A stretch of DNA of 64,000 nucleotides, from contig JAIOYW010000016.1 in assembly GCA_021740915.1 (NCBI GenBank), positions 1 to 64,000 on the forward strand, in the 5' to 3' direction. This document shows positions 8,019 to 44,147 of the stretch, piece after piece. This DNA comes from Ignavibacteriales bacterium (GTDB lineage: Bacteria > Bacteroidota > Ignavibacteria > Ignavibacteriales > Melioribacteraceae). Within the stretch, counting starts at the first letter, position 1, and each line of letters begins with the position of its first letter. A program made the translations under genes and the position numbers. The notes under the pieces are model-generated. The model had not been told where the DNA came from and searched no databases. It saw only the letters and a list, made by a program, of their open reading frames with translations.

Positions 8019-9335
8019 TTAATTGGATTTGACTTCGGGCTTTCCGCCTTCATTCTTCTTTTCGATCATTACTTTTTTACCATCCTCAAGTTCAGAAGAA
8101 ATCGCTCTGTAAGGTCCGCTCACTACTTTTTCCCCTTCTTTTAAACCAGTTGTAATTTCGAGATAAGTGTCATCACTTATACCGGTAGCAACTTCACGCA
8201 TTTTAACAACATTATCCTCAACGATAAACACAATTTCTTTAGGTTTATTCGTCCTTTGAATGCCGTTTTCTTTCTTTACAGAGATCGCTTCATTCCTTGA
8301 ATCCGCATTCTGTTCATCTTCTTTTTGCGTTTTAGCATCCAGTACTCTCGCAGTCACACTCTGAATGGGCACTGACAAAACATTAGCTCTTGTTTCAGTC
8401 TCGATGTCGGCATCACAGGACATACCAGGCCTTATTCCTTTGTCAGCTTTGTTCAGTTGAATTTTAATTTCGAAATTTACAATCTCGTCCTGTGTCCCGA
8501 GTCCGCTCTGCTTTGCACTATTACCGATCTGCGTAACCAAACCAAGGAATTTTTTGTCGCCGAATGCATCCACTTCAATCCAGGAAGTGTCCCCCACAGC
8601 AACTTTAACTACATCATTTTCATCAACTTCAACAGTAGCTTCCATTTGCTCAAGATCGGCAACTGTCATAATATTTGTTCCCTGCGTAAAATTACTTCCA
8701 AGTACTCTTTCACCAAGTTCAACGTTCAGAGCGCTTACCGTTCCGTTCAATGGAGAATAAATGGCTGTCCTTGCAAGGTTTTCTTCTGCTTCTTTCAATG
8801 CTTCCTGTGCCTGAAGCACAGCGGCTTTTTGTGCTTCATAAAGTCCCTGATTCTGCAAGAAATTAGCTTTTGCAGCTTCTAGTTGACTGTCAGACGAAAG
8901 TTTTTTATCAAATAGGCCTTTAATTCTTTCATATTCAGATTTTACCTGATCCAGCGATGCTTCACGGACTTTCAAATTCGCGGTCGAAGATTGCAAATTT
9001 GCCTGAGCTCTGTTTCGCTGAGCTACATAAATATCCGGTTTGATTCTTATTAGCAACTGTCCTTTTCTAACTACATCCCCTTCTTCAACCGGTAATTCAA
9101 CAATTTCACCATTCACTTCCGGAGTAATTACAACCTGTTCAACAGGGTTTATCTTTCCGGTAGCAGTAACCACTTCTGTAATTGTTCTTAATTTAACTTC
9201 TTCCTGTTGAACCGGGATTATCAGTTCTTTATTCCCACCAGCAATTATCATTACTGCCACAACAATCAGTAAAACCCCAATCACTGAGAATATGATTATT
9301 TTTTTACGATTTTTTTTCTTCTGCGCTTTTGTCAT
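8019..9335 (-). CDS. Periplasmic adaptor (MacA/HlyD-type membrane fusion protein)
   Basis: This 438-aa protein has a lysine-rich N-terminus and one membrane anchor (IIIFSVIGVLLIVVAVMII). A barrel-sandwich half follows (ITPEVNGEIVELPVEEGDVVRKGQLLIRI), then a long alpha-helical hairpin (about residues 95-185, rich in Ala, Glu and Gln), the returning lipoyl half (AIYSPLNGTVSALNVELGERV) and beta-barrel/membrane-proximal domains. It should bridge the permeases to the outer-membrane channel. It lies between tolC (19 nt upstream) and the ATPase gene (15 nt downstream). A polar Gln/Glu/Asn-rich insert sits near residues 335-360. Confidence 0.9.
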   Translation of the reverse strand: MTKAQKKKNRKKIIIFSVIGVLLIVVAVMIIAGGNKELIIPVQQEEVKLRTITEVVTATGKINPVEQVVITPEVNGEIVELPVEEGDVVRKGQLLIRIKPDIYVAQRNRAQANLQSSTANLKVREASLDQVKSEYERIKGLFDKKLSSDSQLEAAKANFLQNQGLYEAQKAAVLQAQEALKEAEENLARTAIYSPLNGTVSALNVELGERVLGSNFTQGTNIMTVADLEQMEATVEVDENDVVKVAVGDTSWIEVDAFGDKKFLGLVTQIGNSAKQSGLGTQDEIVNFEIKIQLNKADKGIRPGMSCDADIETETRANVLSVPIQSVTARVLDAKTQKEDEQNADSRNEAISVKKENGIQRTNKPKEIVFIVEDNVVKMREVATGISDDTYLEITTGLKEGEKVVSGPYRAISSELEDGKKVMIEKKNEGGKPEVKSN

Positions 9336-9354
9336 TGAAATTATCTCCGGATAA

Positions 9355-10695
9355 TTATTTTATCAAATTTTTTACATTGAGTTTACCAAGGTACCTAAGC
9401 AGATTATCCTTTAATCTGTAGAATTCATATTCTGCTTCAATTAATGAACGCTGAGCATCCATAAAATCATTATCAGCCTGCAAAACTTCCAGAATAGTGC
9501 CTGAACCGAGTGAATATTTTTCATTTATAAGTTTACGGGTTTCTCCGGCTGCAATAATAGTCTTTTTACTAACTTCGAGTGCTTTCTTTGCGGTATTGAG
9601 CTGCAGATAACCCTGTTTAATCTCAATCTTGATCTGTCTTTCAAGAACATTCAGTCCTTCAGTAGCATTCAGAACATTAACCTTGGCAAGTTCTGTTGAG
9701 TATTCTGTACTCCAGTTACTGAAAATCGGGAGATTAATCGATAATCCAAAAGAATAAGTCTTTCTGTCGAATAATTTACCGACTTCAGAAGCAACTGTTC
9801 CGAATCCGTAATCTGCTGAAAGTGAAGGATAAAATCCTGATCGTGCCCGAGTGACACCAGATTCTGCTATTTTAAGATTGAGTTTTGTGCTTTTATAATC
9901 GTCCCTGTTCTGGAGAGCTGTATTTACAAGATTTTCGATTGTGTCAAATTCGGACATATATGCTTCAACATCAGGTGCCGAGTCGAATGGATCGATAAAA
10001 TCATATTCTTCAAGAACATTCAGCGCCAGATAATCAAGAAGATTACTCTTTGAAGTTTCATAAAGGTTTTCAGTTTGTAAATATTGAAGTTCTGCTGTCC
10101 CAAGCTGCACCTGCTGTGCATAAACATCAGCAAGAGTAACAGCTCCCAGTTTATTTCTTTCTTCAATATCTTCGAGGAATTTCTGGTTGTACTTCAGATT
10201 TTCGTCTCTTACTTTTAAAAGCTCTTTTGCTTTCAGAACCGTATAAAATAATTCGCTCGTCTGATAAATAATGTCTTGTTTGAGTTTTGCTATCTCAAAT
10301 TTCGATGATTCAATATTATCCTGTTTCTCTGAGATGTTCGCATAATTCGACAAACCATCGAACAGAACAACACTGCCGCCGGCACTAAGGCTGAAACTTC
10401 TCGAATCAACCTCAGTCTTGGAAATGGGAACTAAAACCCCAAATTCATTCCTGAGAAATCCGCCTCCATCATCAGCAGTTCTGTTCCAGTCCCAGGAACC
10501 CCTGATACCGAAATTCGGCAATAATGCACCATAGGCGTTCTTTAGGGCGGCTTCAGAAGTGCTTAGATTATTTTTAGAAATTATCAAATTTGAATTCCTC
10601 TGAAGGGCAAGAGTTGTGGCTTCATCAAGAGTCAACTTTTTTTGGGCTGAGACAACCGAAAAAAGAGCAAGAAATGCCAGCAGGAATTTGTTCAT
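9355..10695 (-). CDS. tolC: TolC-family outer-membrane efflux channel
   Basis: This 446-aa protein has a signal peptide (MNKFLLAFLALFSVVSAQ) and the duplicated OEP architecture: long coiled helices alternating with outer-membrane strands. LTLDEATTLALQRNSNLIISKNN opens the first repeat and the SLGSGTILEVLQADNDFMDAQRSLIEAEYEFY block closes the second. It forms the trimeric exit duct of the efflux complex encoded by the four genes downstream. An AAGGAG site precedes the ATG. It is the first gene of the operon. No clear promoter could be seen in the 79-nt gap to cca, so read-through from cca is possible. Confidence 0.92.
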   Translation of the reverse strand: MNKFLLAFLALFSVVSAQKKLTLDEATTLALQRNSNLIISKNNLSTSEAALKNAYGALLPNFGIRGSWDWNRTADDGGGFLRNEFGVLVPISKTEVDSRSFSLSAGGSVVLFDGLSNYANISEKQDNIESSKFEIAKLKQDIIYQTSELFYTVLKAKELLKVRDENLKYNQKFLEDIEERNKLGAVTLADVYAQQVQLGTAELQYLQTENLYETSKSNLLDYLALNVLEEYDFIDPFDSAPDVEAYMSEFDTIENLVNTALQNRDDYKSTKLNLKIAESGVTRARSGFYPSLSADYGFGTVASEVGKLFDRKTYSFGLSINLPIFSNWSTEYSTELAKVNVLNATEGLNVLERQIKIEIKQGYLQLNTAKKALEVSKKTIIAAGETRKLINEKYSLGSGTILEVLQADNDFMDAQRSLIEAEYEFYRLKDNLLRYLGKLNVKNLIK

Positions 10696-10774
10696 TATAT
10701 TCTCCTTAAAACTGTTTATTATTATGACGGATTGATTGGAAAAGAGTTACAAAATTTAATTAAAATAATTTCAA

Positions 10775-12202
10775 CTAGTTATTCATGATCCTGTTTTTGA
10801 TCTTCAGAAAATATTCATATGCTGCATCATACTCATTTGGAATGATTCCATCGAGAATTGCCTCTTCTATTTGTGTTTTAATGACCCCAACCATTCTCCC
10901 TGGTGGGATCCCGCAAACTTTCATTATTTCCTCTCCCCTCACAGGCGATTGGAATTCCCTCAATTTATCTTTTTCCTCTACTTCTTTAACCCTTAACATC
11001 ACTTTCTCATAATTTGAAAGGTACCTTCTCACTTTGGAAGGATTTTTACTCGTAATATCTGCGCGGCACAAACTGATAAGATCATCAAGATTTTCTCCAG
11101 CATTAACTACAAGGCGCCTGATGGCGCTGTCTGTCACTTCTTCATCAACCAGCGCTATTGGTCTAAGATGCAGCCGGACAAGTTTCTCAACATAAGGTAA
11201 TTCATGCAAGGGCAATTTCATTTTACGAAAAATTCTTTTCATCATTCTTGCACCTAACTCTTCATGACCATGAAAAGTCCACCCCGTACCCTCAACGAAT
11301 TTTTTAGTATTTGGTTTTGCAATATCATGAACAAGCGCGGCAAACCTTAGCCAAACATTTTCGGTAACAGCACTTATGTTATCTACCACTTCGAGTGTAT
11401 GCAGGAAAACATCTTTGTGATGATATTCTTTCCTCTGTTCAATTCCTGCTAAGAGAGATATTTCCGGGAAAAAAAATGTAAATGCACCCGATTCATGAAG
11501 AAGTTTAAGCCCAACAGAAGGCTTAGGCAAAGAAAGAATTTTAAGGAATTCATCAGTTATCCGTTCCTGGGAGATTATTTCAAGTCTCGCAACATTCTTC
11601 TTAATACCTTCCCAGGTCTCATCTTCAATCTTAAAATTTAGTTTTGCTGCAAACCTGATCGCTCTCAAAATTCGTAAAGGATCATCAGAAAAAGTTTCGT
11701 CGGGTTTTAGCGGAGTCCGTATAACACCTTTCTCAAGGTCAGCGATTCCATTAAAAAGATCCGCAAGATTCCCCCTTCCGGGCTCATTCAGAGAAACTGC
11801 AAGCGTATTGATTGTGAAGTCTCTTCTCCGGATATCATCAATAAATACGCCCTTTTCAACAGATGGTTTTCTCGATTCAACAGAGTAAGATTCGCGGCGG
11901 GCTCCCACAAATTCATAGGGAGTATTTTGAAAATCAAACTTTGCTGTACCAAAATTCTTGAAATAACTTACGTTTTTTACCCTGATTTCCGCTGCCACCT
12001 CGGCTGCAAAAGCTGGACCATCGCCAATCACAGTAAAATCAGCCTCATCTTGCTCATTTCCAATGTCCAGCAGTCTATCCCTGACATATCCACCAACAAC
12101 ATAGACCTCAATCCCAGATTTTGTGGCCACTCGGGATACAGCGCCAAAGATTGGCATAGATTCAATAGCATTATTCAGTTTATCAAAATTCAATTTATTC
12201 AT
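10775..12202 (-). CDS. cca: CCA-adding/poly(A) polymerase-type nucleotidyltransferase with HD domain
   Basis: This 475-aa class II nucleotidyltransferase should add or repair the 3' CCA of tRNA. That fits both tRNA genes in this window, which do not encode CCA. The N-terminal domain carries the VGGYVRDRLL motif (residues 36-45) and DEADFTVIG, in which the first catalytic carboxylate of the usual D-x-D is Glu (E53-A-D55). The RRDFTINTLA block and a C-terminal HD domain (AALVHDIAKP) follow; the HD domain suggests extra 2',3'-phosphatase or phosphodiesterase activity. Its start overlaps the end of the upstream peptidase gene by 8 nt, implying translational coupling. A poly(A) polymerase role cannot be excluded. 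Confidence 0.9.
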   Translation of the reverse strand: MNKLNFDKLNNAIESMPIFGAVSRVATKSGIEVYVVGGYVRDRLLDIGNEQDEADFTVIGDGPAFAAEVAAEIRVKNVSYFKNFGTAKFDFQNTPYEFVGARRESYSVESRKPSVEKGVFIDDIRRRDFTINTLAVSLNEPGRGNLADLFNGIADLEKGVIRTPLKPDETFSDDPLRILRAIRFAAKLNFKIEDETWEGIKKNVARLEIISQERITDEFLKILSLPKPSVGLKLLHESGAFTFFFPEISLLAGIEQRKEYHHKDVFLHTLEVVDNISAVTENVWLRFAALVHDIAKPNTKKFVEGTGWTFHGHEELGARMMKRIFRKMKLPLHELPYVEKLVRLHLRPIALVDEEVTDSAIRRLVVNAGENLDDLISLCRADITSKNPSKVRRYLSNYEKVMLRVKEVEEKDKLREFQSPVRGEEIMKVCGIPPGRMVGVIKTQIEEAILDGIIPNEYDAAYEYFLKIKNRIMNN

Positions 12203-36165: not shown

Positions 36166-37344
36166 ATGAGAACTATTGTTGCCTTGCCTGGTGATGGAAT
36201 TGGGAAAGTGGTGTTGCCTGAATCGATCAGATTGTTGAGCGCCGCCGGATTTAATGCAGAATATGTAAATGGTGATATTGGTTGGGAATTTTGGATAAAA
36301 GAAGGCAATCCACTGCCGCAGAGAACAGTCGATTTGCTCGAAAAGCACAAAATTGGACTTTTCGGAGCAATTACAAGTAAGCCAAAGTCGGATGCAGAAA
36401 AAGAACTTTCTCCGGATCTTAAAGGTAAAGGATATGTTTATTTCAGTCCAATCGTTAGTCTGAGACAAAAATTTAACCTGGATATTTGCATTAGACCATG
36501 CCAGTCCTTCAAAGGAAATCCACTTAATTTTATTAGGAAAAATTCATCTGGAGGATTCGAAGAACCTCTCGTTAATGCAGTTATTTTCAGACAAAACACA
36601 GAAGGGTTGTATGCCGGAGTGGAATGGACAAATCCTCCGGCGGATGTCAGAACTGCTTTAGAGACACATCCTAAAATGAAATTTTTTAAGGATGTGCCAA
36701 GTGAAGAGATGGCGATTTCCACCAGAATCATAACCAAACATGCTGCAACAAGAATTATTAAAGCGGCTTTTGAGTATGCAAAAAAATACGGCTATAAAAA
36801 TGTGACCGTCTGTGAAAAACCGAATGTTTTGCGTGAGACTTCAGGGATGATGCTTTCGATCGCAAAAGCAAAGGCTAAAGAATATCCCGGGATCTCGCTT
36901 TGGGACACCAATATCGACGCTCAAATGATGTGGATGACAAAAAATCCGGAGGACTATGGAGTGATTGTTGCTGAGAATATGTTTGGAGATATTATAAGCG
37001 ATGGTTTTGCAGGACTTGTCGGCGGTTTGGGATTCGCTTGCAGTGCTAATCTGGGAGATGAGGTTGCTGTCTTCGAACCCACACACGGCTCCGCCCCAAA
37101 ATATGAGATGCTTAATCCATCAATTGTTAATCCAATTGCAATGTTTCTCTCAGCATGTATGATGCTCGATCATATCGGAGAAAATGCAATCGCGGCAAAG
37201 ATCAGAAAAGCAATTGCTAAGGTTGTTGAAGAAGGCAATGTAAAAACATACGATATGATGAAAATCAGAGGGGGTGCAGACGTTTTCAAACAGGGAGCTG
37301 CTTCAACTCTTGAATTGACTGATGCTGTAATAGCAGCTTTATAA
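36166..37344 (+). CDS. Isocitrate/homoisocitrate/isopropylmalate dehydrogenase-family enzyme
   Basis: This 392-aa beta-decarboxylating dehydrogenase should interconvert a 2-hydroxy-3-carboxy acid with a 2-oxo acid and CO2, using NAD(P). Visible motifs are LPGDGIG, FGAITS, LRQKFNLDICIRPCQ, the RQNTEG loop, the conserved YAKKYGYKNVTVCEKPNV, WDTNIDAQMMWM, MFGDIISDGFAGLVGGLG and FEPTHGSAPKY. The substrate-loop sequence is not the standard IDH or LeuB one, so isocitrate, homoisocitrate and related acids must all be considered. It is the first gene of the seven-gene operon and has GAGG before its ATG. The next gene is 11 nt downstream. Cofactor preference not determined; the HGSAPKY loop fits NAD better than NADP. 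Confidence 0.85.
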   Translation: MRTIVALPGDGIGKVVLPESIRLLSAAGFNAEYVNGDIGWEFWIKEGNPLPQRTVDLLEKHKIGLFGAITSKPKSDAEKELSPDLKGKGYVYFSPIVSLRQKFNLDICIRPCQSFKGNPLNFIRKNSSGGFEEPLVNAVIFRQNTEGLYAGVEWTNPPADVRTALETHPKMKFFKDVPSEEMAISTRIITKHAATRIIKAAFEYAKKYGYKNVTVCEKPNVLRETSGMMLSIAKAKAKEYPGISLWDTNIDAQMMWMTKNPEDYGVIVAENMFGDIISDGFAGLVGGLGFACSANLGDEVAVFEPTHGSAPKYEMLNPSIVNPIAMFLSACMMLDHIGENAIAAKIRKAIAKVVEEGNVKTYDMMKIRGGADVFKQGAASTLELTDAVIAAL

Positions 37345-37355
37345 GGATTACCGAT

Positions 37356-37901
37356 ATGAGAGAAAAAGTAAAAAATATATGGCCTGAAATTGAATGGATA
37401 ACGGATATTTCTCTTAGAGAAAAAGTTCTGGATTGTTGGGAATATGCGATTGAGAATAGTCCGCTTACACCTGAGGATCTTGAAGTTATTCCTTTTTCAC
37501 TTCTAATAAAGGATTGCAATATCACTTTTATGAACCATAAAAGAACTGCAGTTCATCTTTCAGTTGAAATGGCAAATATCATGAAAAAAAATTTTGGGGA
37601 TGAGATCAGTATCGACATGGACACACTCATTGCCGGGGCTATACTGATTGATGTTGGTAAGCTGATTGAATATGAGTTAGTGGATGGCAAACTTGGCACA
37701 AGCAGAGCCGGTAAGCTTGTCCGCCACCCATTCAGCGGTCTTTCAATCGCAGATCGCTTTGGGTTGTCGCCTGATATACAGCATATAATTGCGACACATT
37801 CAAAAGAAGGTGATCTTGGTAAGAGGACGGTCGAATCAATTATTGTGCATCACGCAGATTTCGTCAGTTTCGATCCTTTCAGACCAGAAATCAGGTTATA
37901 G
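37356..37901 (+). CDS. Degenerate HD-fold protein of the tricarboxylate operon
   Basis: This 181-aa protein has the helical layout of an HD-superfamily phosphohydrolase: H61 and H67 (NHKRTAVHLS), the second helix GAILIDVGK, H124 (VRHPFSG), H148 (IIATHSKEGD) and HHADFV (165-170). The defining His-Asp pair is replaced by Ile98-Asp99, so the usual metal site lacks its histidine. It lies 11 nt after the dehydrogenase and 8 nt before the aconitase gene. Function unknown: a regulatory or nucleotide-binding role is as likely as catalysis. Possibilities include a residual phosphatase acting on a cofactor for the citrate-lyase prosthetic group. Confidence 0.72.
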   Translation: MREKVKNIWPEIEWITDISLREKVLDCWEYAIENSPLTPEDLEVIPFSLLIKDCNITFMNHKRTAVHLSVEMANIMKKNFGDEISIDMDTLIAGAILIDVGKLIEYELVDGKLGTSRAGKLVRHPFSGLSIADRFGLSPDIQHIIATHSKEGDLGKRTVESIIVHHADFVSFDPFRPEIRL

Positions 37902-37909
37902 GAGATATT

Positions 37910-39889
37910 ATGCCTCAGAATTTTGTTGAAAAAATATGTCAAAAACATGTGCACAATAATTCGGGAAATAAACTCGTTCAATCGGGAGATTATATCTCAA
38001 TAGCACCCTCCTATGTTATGACTCATGACAATACGGGGGCAGTTATCCCGAAATTCAAATCTATTGGAGCCGTTAAGCTTTTTAATCCCCGTCAGGTAGT
38101 TAACACTCTCGATCATAATATCCAGGATAAGAGCGAAAAAAATCTTGAAAAATATAAAAAGATAGAAAATTTCGCCCGCTCAATGGGAGCCGATTTCTAT
38201 CCTGCCGGAAGGGGCATCGGTCACCAGATTATGATTGAGGAAGGATATGCATGGCCGGGAACGATGGTTGTTGCATCCGACAGTCATTCGAATATGTATG
38301 GTGGAATAGGATGTCTTGGAACACCGATTGTGAGAACTGATGCAGCATCAATCTGGGCAACTGGAAGAACTTGGTGGCAGATACCTCTGGTAATTAAGGT
38401 TAATTTGAATGGACGTTTAAAAGCTGGTGTCCGAGGGAAAGATGTAATAATCGCACTTTGTGGATACTTTAAAAAAGATGAAGTTCTTAATTCTATAGTG
38501 GAATTTTCAGGCGATGGTATTAGTGAATTAAACATCGATCAACGACTGACAATCGCAAACATGACAACAGAATGGGGAGCACTTGGCGGCATTTTTATGA
38601 TCGATGATGTAACAATCAACTGGCTTGAAAAGCGAATTGATTATATTGAAAAACGTGGTTTGCCTGGAGTCAGTTCTGATCCTGCTGAAGGTAATACCAA
38701 TCCCAGATTGAACCGCTCAAATCTTGCGGCGCTTAAACAATCACTTAATGCATTAACACCGGATAAGGATGCTTTTTATAGTAAAATACTAAACCTCGAC
38801 CTTTTAACAATAGAACCTTTCATTTCTGGCCCCAATACTGTAAAAACTATGCATAAAGTTTCTGAGGTTAGTCGCAAAAAAATAAATATCAATAAAGCTT
38901 ATCTCGTATCATGTGTAAACAGCAGAATCGACGATATCGCGGAAGCCGCAGAAGCTATTTCCGGCAAAAAAGTTGCTGAAGGCGTTAATTTTTATATATC
39001 CGCAGCCTCGAATGAAGTTCAGAAAGAAAGTGAGATGCGGGGTGACTGGCAAAAACTTATTAATGCCGGTGCAATTCCCCTTCCTCCGGGCTGTGGTCCG
39101 TGTATCGGACTTGGTACAGGTCTGCTGGAAGATGGCGAGGTTGGGATTTCAGCAACGAACAGAAACTTCAAAGGACGTATGGGTTCCCGTGAAGCCGATG
39201 CTTATCTTGCTTCTCCTGCAGTTGTTGCAGCTTCAGCCGTTGCTGGCTACATCACAGCTCCATTTACTATAGAACCTTCAGATATTATAGGAACAATCGA
39301 AGAATTGCAGGTTGAAGATAAAGATATACCAGCGATTGATATTATTCCTGGATTTAAAGAAGAGATTACTGGAAATCTGGTATTTTGCCATCAGGACAAT
39401 CTGAATACCGATGGCATTTATCCAGGAAAATATACCTATAATGATGATTTTACACCGGAGGATCAAGCCCGGGTTGTCATGGAAAACTATGATCCTGAAT
39501 TTGTGGGAAGAACAAATGCTGGTGATATTCTTGCAGGTGGTTTTAATTTCGGGACTGGCAGTTCACGTGAACAAGCTGCAACTGCACTCAAATATAAAGG
39601 CATTCAATGTGTGATTGTCGGCAGTGCAAGCCAGACATATATGCGCAATGCACTCAACAATGGTTTTCTTGTAGTTGAGTCACCTTCTTTCATCAAATAT
39701 CTGAAATCATTTATTTCGTTGGATAAACCGACTATTTATACAGAGAATGAAATCAGAATTAATTTCAAAACATCAAAAATCTATTACGATGAAAAAGTTT
39801 TCAATATTAGTCCCGTTGGACCGGCTGCACAAGAATTAGTCGTTCTTGGCGGACTTGAAAACTGGATAAAAAATAATATTAAGAATTGA
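37910..39889 (+). CDS. Aconitase-superfamily enzyme resembling fungal homoaconitase
   Basis: This 659-aa protein combines the large and swivelling aconitase domains in one chain. The 4Fe-4S ligands appear as SCVNSR and CGPCIG. Other motifs are MTHDN, DHNIQDKSEKNLEKYKK, FYPAGRGIGHQIMIEEGYAWPG, DSHSNMYGGIGCLGTPIVRTDAASIW and, in the last domain, NFGTGSSREQAA. The D-I-Q-KSEKNL and GRGIGHQIMIEEGYA segments recall fungal mitochondrial homoaconitase (Lys4) more than the bacterial AcnA, AcnB or LeuC types; this is from memory and needs a search. It should isomerise a tertiary to a secondary hydroxy tricarboxylate through the cis-alkene. Its substrate could be citrate, methylcitrate or homocitrate. 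Confidence 0.87.
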   Translation: MPQNFVEKICQKHVHNNSGNKLVQSGDYISIAPSYVMTHDNTGAVIPKFKSIGAVKLFNPRQVVNTLDHNIQDKSEKNLEKYKKIENFARSMGADFYPAGRGIGHQIMIEEGYAWPGTMVVASDSHSNMYGGIGCLGTPIVRTDAASIWATGRTWWQIPLVIKVNLNGRLKAGVRGKDVIIALCGYFKKDEVLNSIVEFSGDGISELNIDQRLTIANMTTEWGALGGIFMIDDVTINWLEKRIDYIEKRGLPGVSSDPAEGNTNPRLNRSNLAALKQSLNALTPDKDAFYSKILNLDLLTIEPFISGPNTVKTMHKVSEVSRKKININKAYLVSCVNSRIDDIAEAAEAISGKKVAEGVNFYISAASNEVQKESEMRGDWQKLINAGAIPLPPGCGPCIGLGTGLLEDGEVGISATNRNFKGRMGSREADAYLASPAVVAASAVAGYITAPFTIEPSDIIGTIEELQVEDKDIPAIDIIPGFKEEITGNLVFCHQDNLNTDGIYPGKYTYNDDFTPEDQARVVMENYDPEFVGRTNAGDILAGGFNFGTGSSREQAATALKYKGIQCVIVGSASQTYMRNALNNGFLVVESPSFIKYLKSFISLDKPTIYTENEIRINFKTSKIYYDEKVFNISPVGPAAQELVVLGGLENWIKNNIKN

Positions 39890-39896
39890 GGAATTT

Positions 39897-41345
39897 ATGG
39901 GAAAATCCATTTCGCGGATAATTGCCGAATTTGCAGTAAATCTTAAATATGAAGATCTGCCGGAAAACGTTGTTAATGAAGTAAAACGATACTTATACGA
40001 TTCTATAGGATGTGCTTATGGTGCAATGGACACAAAAGACGTTGGCATTATGCGTGGTATTTATAAAGAGATGGAAGGTGCGCCTGAATCGACTACCATT
40101 GGCTTCGGGGATAAAATACCGGCTGTAAATAGTTCTCTTGTCAATTCACTGATGATTCGTGCTCTCGATTTTAATGATATATACTGGAAAGAAGATCCTT
40201 CACATCCTTCAGATATTATTCCAGCAGCACTTTCTGTTGCGGAAAAATATAACGCTGATATGAAAACTGTTATTACAGCAATTGCGCTTGCTTATGAATT
40301 CGAACAACGATTATGTGAATTTGCTGTTCCTGGTGTCCGTGAAAGAAAATGGCATCATGCTACTTTGACACAGTTTGTATCTCCGATTGTCGCAGGAAAA
40401 GTTATGGGATTGAATGTGGATCAGATGGTGAATGCGATCGGCATAAGTGGTTCACACAACCATACAATAGGATGCCCGACAGCCGGAAAACTTACAATGA
40501 TGAAAAATACTGTTGATCCTATGGCTGTTCAGGCAGGTGTTTTTGCAGCAATGATGGCTGAAAAAGGCTATACAGGTACCGAGGCCGTTTTCGAAGGCAA
40601 AGAAGGATTTATGGATTGTTTTTTTGGATGGGATTATACAAACCAGAAAAATGACCCCATAAATATGAAAGGCAGAGACCCTAATGCCTTGCTTCCGGAT
40701 TGGAACTGGGATATTGAAAAACTGACCGGCAATCTTGGTCAAAAATTCAAAATTCTTGAGTGCAGCATGAAGGCTTTCCCAACAGAAGCCCTTACACATA
40801 CGCATATCTCAGCTACTCTAAAAGTAATGAAGAGTAACAGACTTTCATACAAGGAAGTCGAGGAAGTAAAGGTTACAACAATTGCACGTGCCTGCGATAT
40901 CCTTTTTGACCCGCATAAATACAGACCGGATTCGAGGGAAACCGCAGATCATTCATTGCCCTACTGCATTGCGGCTGCTATTGTTGATGGTAAAATAACA
41001 ACACAGTCTTTCTCTGATGAAAAAATGAAAGATCCGGCAATCTGGGAAGTTATTGATAAAATCAAAGGTGAGGCCAGTATTGAATTTGAAAAAATGTTCC
41101 CGGCCAAGCAGCCGTCAAAAGTGGTCGTGAAAACAAAATCAGGAGAATTTTTCTCAGCTTATCTTGAATACCCGAAAGGTGATCCAAGAGAGCCCATGAC
41201 TTCTGAGGATCTGGACAATAAATTTGCCGCACTCGCTGAAGGAAAACTTGACAAAGTTTCACAGTTAAAAGTAAAAGAAATGATATTTGATTGTGAATCA
41301 ATGTCAGCAAGAGAATTTATGGAAAAACTGGTCATAAAGGGATAG
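39897..41345 (+). CDS. MmgE/PrpD-family dehydratase
   Basis: This 482-aa protein is of the MmgE/PrpD family: DSIGCAYGAMD, ALDFNDIYWK-DPSHPSDIIPAALS, the HATLTQFVSPIVAGKVMGLN helix, the central AGKLTMMKNTVDPMAVQAGVFAAMMAEKGYTG and FKILECSMKAFPTEALTHTH. Known members dehydrate 2-methylcitrate or citrate (PrpD, MmgE), decarboxylate cis-aconitate (CAD), or epimerise iminodisuccinate. Two dehydratase-type enzymes in one operon suggest they handle the two hydroxyl positions or stereoisomers of one tricarboxylate, but a decarboxylase role would give itaconate instead. It is 7 nt after the aconitase gene and 7 nt before the citDE fusion gene. Confidence 0.88.
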   Translation: MGKSISRIIAEFAVNLKYEDLPENVVNEVKRYLYDSIGCAYGAMDTKDVGIMRGIYKEMEGAPESTTIGFGDKIPAVNSSLVNSLMIRALDFNDIYWKEDPSHPSDIIPAALSVAEKYNADMKTVITAIALAYEFEQRLCEFAVPGVRERKWHHATLTQFVSPIVAGKVMGLNVDQMVNAIGISGSHNHTIGCPTAGKLTMMKNTVDPMAVQAGVFAAMMAEKGYTGTEAVFEGKEGFMDCFFGWDYTNQKNDPINMKGRDPNALLPDWNWDIEKLTGNLGQKFKILECSMKAFPTEALTHTHISATLKVMKSNRLSYKEVEEVKVTTIARACDILFDPHKYRPDSRETADHSLPYCIAAAIVDGKITTQSFSDEKMKDPAIWEVIDKIKGEASIEFEKMFPAKQPSKVVVKTKSGEFFSAYLEYPKGDPREPMTSEDLDNKFAALAEGKLDKVSQLKVKEMIFDCESMSAREFMEKLVIKG

Positions 41346-41352
41346 CTTAGTG

Positions 41353-42579
41353 ATGAATAAAACCGGATATGCGGGCAAAAAAGGAGATAAGATACGCTCT
41401 GACTGCTATATATCAATAACAGAAAACGGACTTGAGAATAATTCGCTTCAGATCAAAAGTAAAGTTTCACCTATGTACGGTGAAAATATCGAATCTCAAA
41501 TGTATGATTTAATTCAAAAAGCCGGGATTAAAGGCGTTGATATAGTTATAAATGATTACGGGGCGCTGCCTTTTGTGATTGCCGCCCGATTTGAATCTGC
41601 TTTGAGACGATATGATCCGGCTTATAAAACAGAACTGCTTCCTTTGAAGAACAATAATCTCAGGGGAAATACAGCCAAAGATCGAAGAAGAAGAAGCAGA
41701 TTGTATCTGCCGGGAAATGAACCCAAATTTTTCCCAAATGCCGGTTTACATGGTCCGGATGGGATCATTCTCGATTTGGAAGACAGCGTATCTCCGGCTG
41801 AAAAAGACAGCGCACTTCTTCTTGTAAGGAATGCCCTGATCTCGACAGATTTTTATAGCGCTGAAAGGATGGTAAGGATAAATCAGCTTCCTAAAGGTCT
41901 AACTGAATTACCGTTTTTGCTCCCTCATAATATTGATGTTGTTCTGCTCCCCAAATGCGAATCCGAAGATGATGTGAATTCCATCAGCACTTTTATTGAG
42001 GAATTTTGCATTACTAATGGTATTGATAGAAGGCCTTGGGTAATGCCGATAATAGAGAGCGCAAAGGGCGTTTTGAATGCCTATAAGATAGCAACAGCTT
42101 CAGAACTGGTTTGTTCGCTAGCGGTGGGGCTTGAAGATTACACAGCCGATATTGGCACGAAGAGAACTAATGAAGGAAATGAGAGCTTCTTCGCGCGCAG
42201 TATGATACTGAATGCGGCAAAAGCAGCCGGTATTCAGGCTATCGATACTGTTTTTTCTGATGTTGCAGACATGTCCGCGCTGAAGGAAAGTGTTTTAGAA
42301 GCTAAATCACTGGGATATGAAGGAAAAGGATGTATCCATCCACGTCAAATCCCGGTTATTCATGAAGCATTCGCACCTGAAAGAACCGAAGTTGATAAGG
42401 CTATGAAAATAGTTGCTGCCTTCGAAAAAGCCAGGACAGAAGGAAGTGGAGTGGTTTCGCTCGGCAGTAAAATGATCGATATGCCGGTTGTTAAAAGAGC
42501 CCTCAGGCTAATTAATAATGCAGTCGCCGATGGGATGATACCAGCTGACTGGAACAGTGAAAAAGTTGATAAGGGATAA
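41353..42579 (+). CDS. Fused citrate lyase acyl-carrier (CitD) and beta subunit (CitE)
   Basis: This 408-aa protein joins two proteins that are usually separate. Residues 1-95 resemble CitD: GKKGDKIRSDCYISI, then EIMY-like LQIKSKVSPMYGENIES and GVDIVINDYGALPFVIAARFESALRR. The only candidate prosthetic-group serine is Ser16 in RSDC, next to the conserved Asp rather than one residue away, so attachment is uncertain. After a Lys/Arg-rich linker (RRRRSRLYLPG, near 110), residues 115-400 are a CitE/HpcH-type TIM barrel: DGIILDLEDSV, MVRINQLP, LLPKCESEDDV, MPIIESAKGVLNA, GLEDYTADIG and GCIHPRQI. It should cleave citryl- or a related 3-hydroxyacyl-ACP. The start may be GTG 41350. citF follows after 5 nt. 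Confidence 0.85.
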   Translation: MNKTGYAGKKGDKIRSDCYISITENGLENNSLQIKSKVSPMYGENIESQMYDLIQKAGIKGVDIVINDYGALPFVIAARFESALRRYDPAYKTELLPLKNNNLRGNTAKDRRRRSRLYLPGNEPKFFPNAGLHGPDGIILDLEDSVSPAEKDSALLLVRNALISTDFYSAERMVRINQLPKGLTELPFLLPHNIDVVLLPKCESEDDVNSISTFIEEFCITNGIDRRPWVMPIIESAKGVLNAYKIATASELVCSLAVGLEDYTADIGTKRTNEGNESFFARSMILNAAKAAGIQAIDTVFSDVADMSALKESVLEAKSLGYEGKGCIHPRQIPVIHEAFAPERTEVDKAMKIVAAFEKARTEGSGVVSLGSKMIDMPVVKRALRLINNAVADGMIPADWNSEKVDKG

Positions 42580-42584
42580 TCAGG

Positions 42585-44147
42585 ATGGAATTAATTAAGA
42601 ACCACGCCGGCAGATTGGTACCAGATGAAGTTAATGGAGTTAAGTCGATACCATTTATGGGAGTAAATGGTTATAAACCAACCGGGACAAAGATAGCAAA
42701 GAGCGTCAGAAGTTGTGTGGATTTCCCGCTGGATGGAAACAAAGTGGTTTCATCGCTTAAAGAAGCGCTTGTCAACAGCGGAATTAAAGATGGAATGACA
42801 ATATCGACCCATCATCACCTTAGAAACGGTGATATACTAACTAATTATTTATTTGATATTATCAGTGAACTGGGCATAAAAGGAATACGATGGTTCCCTT
42901 CTGCGTCCTTCCCCTGCCATTCACATCTTATACCTTATCTTGATGATGGAACAATACATCATATTGAGGGCAGTATGAACGGACCTCTGGGGCGATACAC
43001 CACTGAAGGGAATATGTCCGGTATGGGAGTATTGCGCTCACATGGTGGAAGATACCAGTCCATTCAGGATGGTGAAGTTGAAATAGATATTGCAGTTATT
43101 GCCGCTCCAACTGCCGACCCTTTTGGTAATGCAAACGGTGTGAATGGTCCTTCGGCTTGCGGTCCTCTTGGATTTGCTCTTGCGGATTCGGAATATGCCC
43201 ATAAAGTTATTGTAGTCACTGACAACCTCGTACCTTTTCCGTGTTACCCCTGGCACATTCAGGGAAACAATGTTGATTATGTTGTTAAGATTGATTCACT
43301 AGGCGATGCTTCAAAAATTGTCTCCGGAACTACTGAAGTTACAAAAAGCCCGGACAGACTCTTAATCGCTCAGTATGTTGCTGATTTTATTGAGAAAGCA
43401 GGAATCCTTAAGGATGGCTTCTCTTTTCAGGCTGGTGCCGGTGGTACAAATCTGGCATTTGCCCTGTACCTGAAAGAAAAAATGATCAAACAGGGAATTA
43501 AAGCAAGGTTTATAAGAGGCGGCAGCACCAAATATCTTGTGCAAATGCTTGAAGAAGGGCTGACTGATTATATTTTGGACGGACAGACTTTTGATCTTGA
43601 AGGTGTACGATCAATGAGGGAAAACCCCGGGCACATTAATACAAGTCCATTCACAAGCTATAATTTCCATGGTAAAGGTAATTTCGCATCAATAATTGAT
43701 GCAGTTGTGCTTGGAGCGACCGAAGTCGATGTTAATTTCAATGCTAATGTTGTCAGCCATTCCGATGGTTATCTTTTACATGGGATTGGAGGCTGGCAGA
43801 ATTGCCTTTATTCGAAGTGTACAATTTTGGCAATTCCTTCTTTCAGGGACAGAATTCCTGTAATCGTTGACGAGGTAACAACACTCTGCGGACCGGGAGA
43901 ATTGGTGGACGTTATTGTAACAGAACGCGGGATTGCAATCAATCCTTTGCGTACCGATCTTCTCGAAGCGACTGCGGGAAGTGGTCTCCCAATCAGAACG
44001 ATATTAGAAATTCAGGCTGAAGTAAATAATATCTGCGGTGGCAAACCAGCAAAACCCCGGGTTGATAAAACTAAACCTGTGGCAGTCATTAAATGGGTTG
44101 ACGGGACAATTCTTGATACTGTTTTCAAGGTTATTCCACAAAAATAA
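42585..44147 (+). CDS. citF: Citrate lyase alpha subunit (acyl-ACP transferase)
   Basis: This 520-aa protein matches CitF. GVKSIPFMGVNGYKPTGTK, TISTHHHLRNGD, GPLGRYTTEGNMSGMGVLRSHGGR, AVIAAPTADPFGNANGV, GAGGTNLAFA, FIRGGSTKYLV, GATEVDVNFNANVVSHSDG and GGWQN are in the family order. CitF swaps the acetyl group of the acyl-carrier domain for the incoming hydroxy acid, which CitE then splits. It lies 5 nt after the CitD-CitE fusion gene. No citC ligase, citX/citG prosthetic-group genes or citT transporter are found in this window, so holo-carrier formation must use genes elsewhere, or the complex differs from the classical one. Confidence 0.93.
   Translation: MELIKNHAGRLVPDEVNGVKSIPFMGVNGYKPTGTKIAKSVRSCVDFPLDGNKVVSSLKEALVNSGIKDGMTISTHHHLRNGDILTNYLFDIISELGIKGIRWFPSASFPCHSHLIPYLDDGTIHHIEGSMNGPLGRYTTEGNMSGMGVLRSHGGRYQSIQDGEVEIDIAVIAAPTADPFGNANGVNGPSACGPLGFALADSEYAHKVIVVTDNLVPFPCYPWHIQGNNVDYVVKIDSLGDASKIVSGTTEVTKSPDRLLIAQYVADFIEKAGILKDGFSFQAGAGGTNLAFALYLKEKMIKQGIKARFIRGGSTKYLVQMLEEGLTDYILDGQTFDLEGVRSMRENPGHINTSPFTSYNFHGKGNFASIIDAVVLGATEVDVNFNANVVSHSDGYLLHGIGGWQNCLYSKCTILAIPSFRDRIPVIVDEVTTLCGPGELVDVIVTERGIAINPLRTDLLEATAGSGLPIRTILEIQAEVNNICGGKPAKPRVDKTKPVAVIKWVDGTILDTVFKVIPQK

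Follow-up and report, generated by a model that had tools for sequence, protein, structure and literature searches.

The window, a stretch of 64,000 nucleotides of DNA from an Ignavibacteriales bacterium, encodes a CitD-type carrier domain fused to a CitE-type lyase (CitDE), followed by a CitF subunit. The fusion is conserved in related bacteria, the residue matching Ser14 of Klebsiella CitD is replaced, CitX and CitG are absent from the searched genomes that encode only the fused form, and the genes belong to a cluster with a dehydrogenase and a hydratase. Textbook citrate lyase relies on a dedicated covalent cofactor and on three maturation enzymes, CitG, CitX and CitC. We hold with moderate confidence that CitDE and CitF would form an ATP-independent citrate lyase that has lost the covalent 2'-(5''-phosphoribosyl)-3'-dephospho-CoA arm and cycles free acetyl-CoA and citryl-CoA. 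From the sequences we infer the loss of the arm, the use of free CoA, the direction of flux and citrate as the substrate.

In such an enzyme, CitF would shift the thioester from free acetyl-CoA onto citrate, yielding citryl-CoA and acetate. The CitE domain would split citryl-CoA into oxaloacetate and acetyl-CoA, the latter re-entering the cycle, and the CitD domain would stay as a structural bridge between CitF and CitE. As free acetyl-CoA is always at hand, CitC would not be needed.

The CitDE fusion and its CitF partner

The citDE gene is a single unbroken open reading frame (41353 to 42579, forward strand) that encodes 408 amino acids from an ATG at 41353, with an in-frame GTG at 41350. The protein comprises a CitD-type carrier domain (residues 1-88), a linker (about 89-109) and a CitE-type lyase (110-408). 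The carrier domain, of the CitD/MdcC fold (41353 to 41631, forward strand), matched PF06857 over residues 16-86 with 55 bits, or 59.1 bits when the N-terminal part was searched alone (cut-off 25.1), and this family was present in all 23 members examined. The lyase domain, a TIM barrel (41680 to 42576, forward strand) with His329 within the motif GCIHPRQ, accounts for a 166-bit match to PF03328 (HpcH/HpaI-citE) over residues ~114-330. It scored 273 bits on TIGR01588 (citE), below the cut-off of 443, as did the classical CitE of genome G015 with 320 bits. Scores were lower on the RipC/Ccl model NF038242 (152 bits, cut-off 375) and on malyl-CoA lyase (70 bits). The joining of a CitD-like domain to CitE, proposed in an earlier note on this DNA, is thus borne out by the one reading frame, by both family matches and by the recurrence of the fusion elsewhere, and a check set beforehand, comparison of the first ~95 residues with the CitD profile, matched the CitD family.

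The AlphaFold2 model of full-length CitDE has a mean pLDDT of 87.6, and that of the carrier domain alone 92.2. The modelled carrier domain is a mixture of strands and helices with an E-E-E-H-E-H topology. Its best structural match is the malonate decarboxylase protein MdcC (5vit chain C), with 83 residues aligned at an rmsd of 1.8 Å and a Z of 11.2, unrelated rows of the same comparison lying far lower, at a Z of ~8. Only chance matches were obtained when the carrier-domain profile was compared with PDB sequences. The earlier note had also described a basic linker. A linker of ~20 residues, roughly 89-109, does exist, but the RRRRSR stretch is mostly the native start of CitE, judging from comparison with the N-terminus of classical free CitE, MIKSRKKRRTMLYIPG.

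The citF gene (42585 to 44147, forward strand) starts five bases past the citDE stop codon and encodes the citrate lyase alpha (acyl transferase) subunit of 520 amino acids (PF04223, 451 bits; TIGR01584 (citF), 492.8 bits for a cut-off of 501.45). Five basic residues, R258, R311, H362, H392 and H399, are invariant in 32 of 32 fused-type CitF proteins and absent from classical CitF. In the CitE domain, the IHPxQ histidine (His329) is found in 56/56 fused proteins, in 6/6 annotated CoA-ester lyases and in the five displayed PDB homologues; this position is Asn in six of eight classical CitE proteins. His329 is weak evidence, since the free-CoA lyases are an outgroup and the state may be ancestral. 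In one locus (L102 of genome G318, 8164-11371), a partial CitF and a second, frameshifted one lie several kb away from CitDE.

A contig scan revealed the fusion in 24 independent genome records, at 51-63% identity, from Ignavibacteria, Melioribacteraceae, Bacteroidales and one Neomarinimicrobiota record. In a sample of 394 genomes of the phylum, 38 contain a CitD domain, always within a fused frame of 377-455 residues. Fusion is therefore the rule here, and its recurrence in both surveys rules out an assembly artefact. We collected 59 distinct fused proteins for alignment. In the tree, the fused-type CitE domains fall into one clade (support 100/98) whose sister is the clade of classical CitE (93/73), and six free-CoA lyases fall outside both. 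Our literature search found no description of fused CitDE. Two loci are disrupted. The seemingly motif-less L086 is a frameshift, with T-R-S-D-C in the neighbouring frame, and in L100 (6179-6297; G212, a single-contig genome) CitDE is frameshifted directly past the RSDC motif, either by a sequencing error or by a real break.

The altered attachment loop

Ser14 of Klebsiella CitD, the established attachment residue of the arm, aligns with Arg15 of CitDE (41395-41397), and Ser15 aligns with Ser16 (41398-41400). Both belong to the altered attachment loop G8-KKGDKIR-S16-D17-C18 (41374 to 41406, forward strand). In the 59 fused proteins the Ser14 column holds Arg (55), Lys (2), Ser (1) or a gap (1), whereas it is Ser in 7/7 classical CitDs, from Klebsiella, E. 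coli, Gluconobacter, Melissococcus, Peptoclostridium and two Bacteroidales. These seven share the motif A-G-T-[LIF]-E-S14-[SG]-D. Its invariant Glu13 (GT[LIF]ES[SG]D) has become Val or Ile in 53/59 fused proteins, whose loop is three residues longer than the classical one and basic ahead of Ser16. The Ser16 column holds Ser in 57 proteins, Ala in one and a gap in one. Among the 58 in-frame proteins, Asp17 is found in 58 and Cys18 in 55, the latter being replaced by Val, Leu or Ala in three.

Ser16 does lie directly before Asp17 ("RSD"), as the earlier note described, and is conserved in 57/58 in-frame homologues. Its designation as the prosthetic-group serine finds no support in the alignment, in which Arg15 occupies the Ser14 column and Ser16 pairs with the unmodified Ser15 or Gly15. 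Its counterpart in ES[SG]D is the unmodified position after the modified Ser, and Ser16 is thus probably not the attachment residue. The E-S-G-D of E. coli CitD offers no alternative attachment candidate.

The family profiles diverge at the same place. Matches to PF06857 begin at position 2 of the model in two classical CitDs, but not before position 10-12 in almost every fused protein; the first 9-11 positions are kept on the former and lost on nearly all of the latter. On TIGR01608 (citD equivalog), CitDE scored 41.5 bits, below the cut-off of 63.5, and the classical controls 79.4, 99.8 and 154.9 bits. In MdcC, the arm is attached to Ser25 at the tip of a loop between antiparallel strands (PMC5534430). 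The counterpart of this loop in CitDE spans residues 8-17.

The loop may instead present a different arm, the chief rival reading, with Ser16 or Cys18 holding another CoA-derived or pantetheine group added by an enzyme encoded elsewhere, which we consider rather unlikely. Such an arm would agree with the near-invariance of R/K-S-D-C and with a model that keeps the MdcC/CitD fold and its β1-β2 loop, where the three additional residues could present a shifted serine. It agrees poorly with G380, where an operon with all six genes intact, HD-PrpD-Acn-IDH-CitDE-CitF, encodes Ala in place of Ser16, and with the Val, Leu or Ala found at Cys18 in three proteins. Phosphopantetheine acyl carrier proteins are four-helix bundles with a D-S-L motif. 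The CitDE model, with its strands and helices, forms no four-helix bundle, and Ser16 is preceded by Arg, not by the Asp of D-S-L, so that it has neither the motif nor the carrier fold expected for phosphopantetheinyl transferases. Moreover, neither CitX nor a precursor synthase of the CitG type was found in the fused-only genomes, nor was MdcG in the 37 tested for it, and the loci hold no extra conserved gene.

The near-invariant S-D-C is unexplained by simple loss of the arm, which argues for a new role of the loop; it may bind CoA, dock on CitF or carry a further modification. Likewise, the carrier domain is kept in every copy and therefore has a job. In an armless lyase, its new basic glycine loop, GK[RK]GxxVRSDC, may allow this domain to hold CoA non-covalently. 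We only tentatively suggest that it could have turned from a covalent swinging-arm carrier into a non-covalent bridge, the loop gripping the phosphates of free CoA while the domain, tethered to CitE and docked on CitF, would hand acetyl- and citryl-CoA from one active site to the other with no covalent cofactor involved.

Maturation genes

Family searches detected no CitX, CitG or CitC in the source genome (4.35 Mb, completeness 100), in line with the loss of the classical cofactor that the earlier note had envisaged as one possibility. CitX and CitG were found in two (G014 and G015) of the 25 genomes with the fusion in the first set, and in none of 37 further ones (95-100% complete, some single-contig). 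Excluding three repeats with the same contig coordinates, both sets amount to 59 distinct genomes. Fifty-seven are fused-only and encode neither CitX nor CitG; two have both forms of the lyase and both genes. A free CitD is encoded only in G014 and G015 among the first 25 genomes. There, one operon holds CitD, CitE and CitF together with a real CitC and a frame that combines CitX and CitG, and the searches gave strong control signals for CitX (E 1e-26), CitG (E 1e-61 to 1e-63) and CitC (E 1e-66). The probability of the two CitX/CitG carriers among 59 genomes matching by chance is 1/1711, a figure that ignores phylogeny, the two being close relatives that represent about one event. Strong CitC matches were confined to G014 and G015. 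Weak matches to PF08218 (20-30 bits, mostly in frames of ~175 residues) were considered as CitC and judged to be other nucleotidyltransferases. MdcG was found in 0/37 genomes tested; its control signal is weak, and this result is hence supporting only. G014 and G015, both Bacteroidota, possess the fused lyase plus a full classical citDEF-XG-C operon (L025-L028, L054-L057) and offer a natural side-by-side comparison.

It is very improbable that the classical phosphoribosyl-dephospho-CoA arm is still placed on Ser16, by CitX and CitG analogues too divergent to detect. Although all three parts are closely homologous to those of citrate lyase and Ser16 is conserved, the searches detect CitX, CitG and CitC strongly in G014 and G015, with their classical operon, the absence is uniform over 57 genomes, and the GTLESSD recognition motif is altered at the modified residue and at its Glu neighbour.

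All complete loci share citDE and citF only. With no third gene in common, no candidate attachment enzyme travels along with them. The HD protein encoded upstream was considered for this function and rejected, being absent next to CitDE in most Bacteroidales loci. A fixing of the carrier arm to the lyase by the fusion, as the earlier note suggested, takes an arm for granted, yet the searches found no attachment gene for one. Another arm, another attachment enzyme and loss of the cofactor had all been put forward; loss is now favoured over the other two.

For a lyase that has lost its arm and uses free CoA, we count the change in the Ser14 column, a profile misfit limited to the attachment segment, the lack of CitX and CitG in fused-only genomes and of any shared extra gene, the Ala of G380, His329 and the basic residues gained by CitF. 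We also count in its favour that MdcD-MdcE, the lyase part of the sister complex, decarboxylates free malonyl-CoA (PMC5534430). Against it we count the near-invariant Ser16, Asp17 and Cys18, more than a dead loop needs, and L062 (ISSDC), the only fused protein to have Ser in both columns.

The gene cluster and known systems

Four forward-strand genes precede citDE. They encode a protein of the isocitrate/homoisocitrate dehydrogenase family (36166 to 37344; PF00180, 257 bits), an HD-like protein (37356 to 37901; PF01966, 29 bits), an aconitase/homoaconitase-family hydratase (37910 to 39889; TIGR00139, 816.5 bits, cut-off 529.9) and an MmgE/PrpD family dehydratase of the same cluster (39897 to 41345). 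Ignavibacteria retain the gene order IDH-HD-ACN-PRPD-CITDE-CITF; in most Bacteroidales loci CITDE-CITF alone is constant. The HD-like protein may be a non-catalytic HD fold, as the His of its HD doublet is lost (GAILIDVGK or ADVGK) in 16/17 homologues, that of L108 alone retaining GLLHDIGK. In L108 (8964-12529) and in L015/L020, two tandem aconitase-family genes replace aconitase and PrpD beside IDH, HD and CitDE-CitF.

Citrate synthase is encoded in 12/12 genomes tested, including the source genome, and the lyase is therefore not a replacement for it. The dehydrogenase and hydratase genes suggest a linked use of isocitrate and citrate, for example the reductive opening of 2-oxoglutarate, which would proceed through isocitrate and citrate to oxaloacetate and acetate. 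Both proteins look homoaconitase- and homoisocitrate-like, yet the setting suggests citrate and isocitrate. The homoaconitase-like score of the hydratase makes a related substrate possible for the fused lyase. We think it improbable that this would be another tricarboxylate or hydroxyacid, such as homocitrate, 2-methylcitrate or citramalate, in place of citrate. In favour of such a substrate, the homoaconitase model gives the hydratase 816 bits, and the best scores of the dehydrogenase come from homoisocitrate-dehydrogenase models, although they stay below the cut-offs. The cluster also includes a PrpD-family dehydratase, and in Peptoclostridium a classical citDEF beside glutamate mutase genes suggests that such complexes can serve other acids. 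However, the CitE domain clearly prefers the citE model (273 bits against 152 for RipC/Ccl and 70 for malyl-CoA lyase), CitF scores 493 bits on citF, and the Bacteroidales loci are without PrpD.

The Melioribacter genome was reported to lack ATP citrate lyase, leaving room for "another enzyme" (PMC3534657). An armless lyase, if real, would be a candidate answer to citrate cleavage in this organism. A natural two-gene lyase without maturation would also change the annotation of citrate lyase in Ignavibacteria and related groups, and would provide a maturation-free enzyme for pathway engineering. CitDE would offer a direct evolutionary test of how a carrier protein behaves after the loss of its arm.

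CitDE and CitF share with classical CitDEF (EC 4.1.3.6, e.g. Klebsiella pneumoniae) the CitD fold, the CitE lyase, the CitF transferase and the D-E-F order. They differ in the fusion of D and E, in the change of the attachment Ser to Arg, in the lack of citX, citG and citC, and in forming their own clade. MdcC of malonate decarboxylase (5VIT chain C, PMC5534430) has the same carrier fold (Z 11.2, rmsd 1.8), but carries the phosphoribosyl-dephospho-CoA arm on Ser25, whereas no MdcB/CitG-type or MdcG genes accompany CitDE. Free-CoA CitE-like lyases (malyl-CoA lyase, CLYBL, RipC/Ccl) have the CitE fold and IHPxQ in common with CitDE and are likewise expected to act on free CoA thioesters. Neither CitD nor CitF accompanies them, and in the tree the fused CitE is placed with classical CitE and not with these lyases. 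The citryl-CoA synthetase and lyase of Hydrogenobacter belong, according to the literature, to other protein families than CitDE and CitF. In Hydrogenobacter, citrate is handled by a citryl-CoA synthetase and a citryl-CoA lyase (PMC9560492). Free citryl-CoA would be an intermediate of both two-step routes, formed by ATP-driven activation in Hydrogenobacter and, as proposed here, by exchange with acetyl-CoA in CitDE-CitF.
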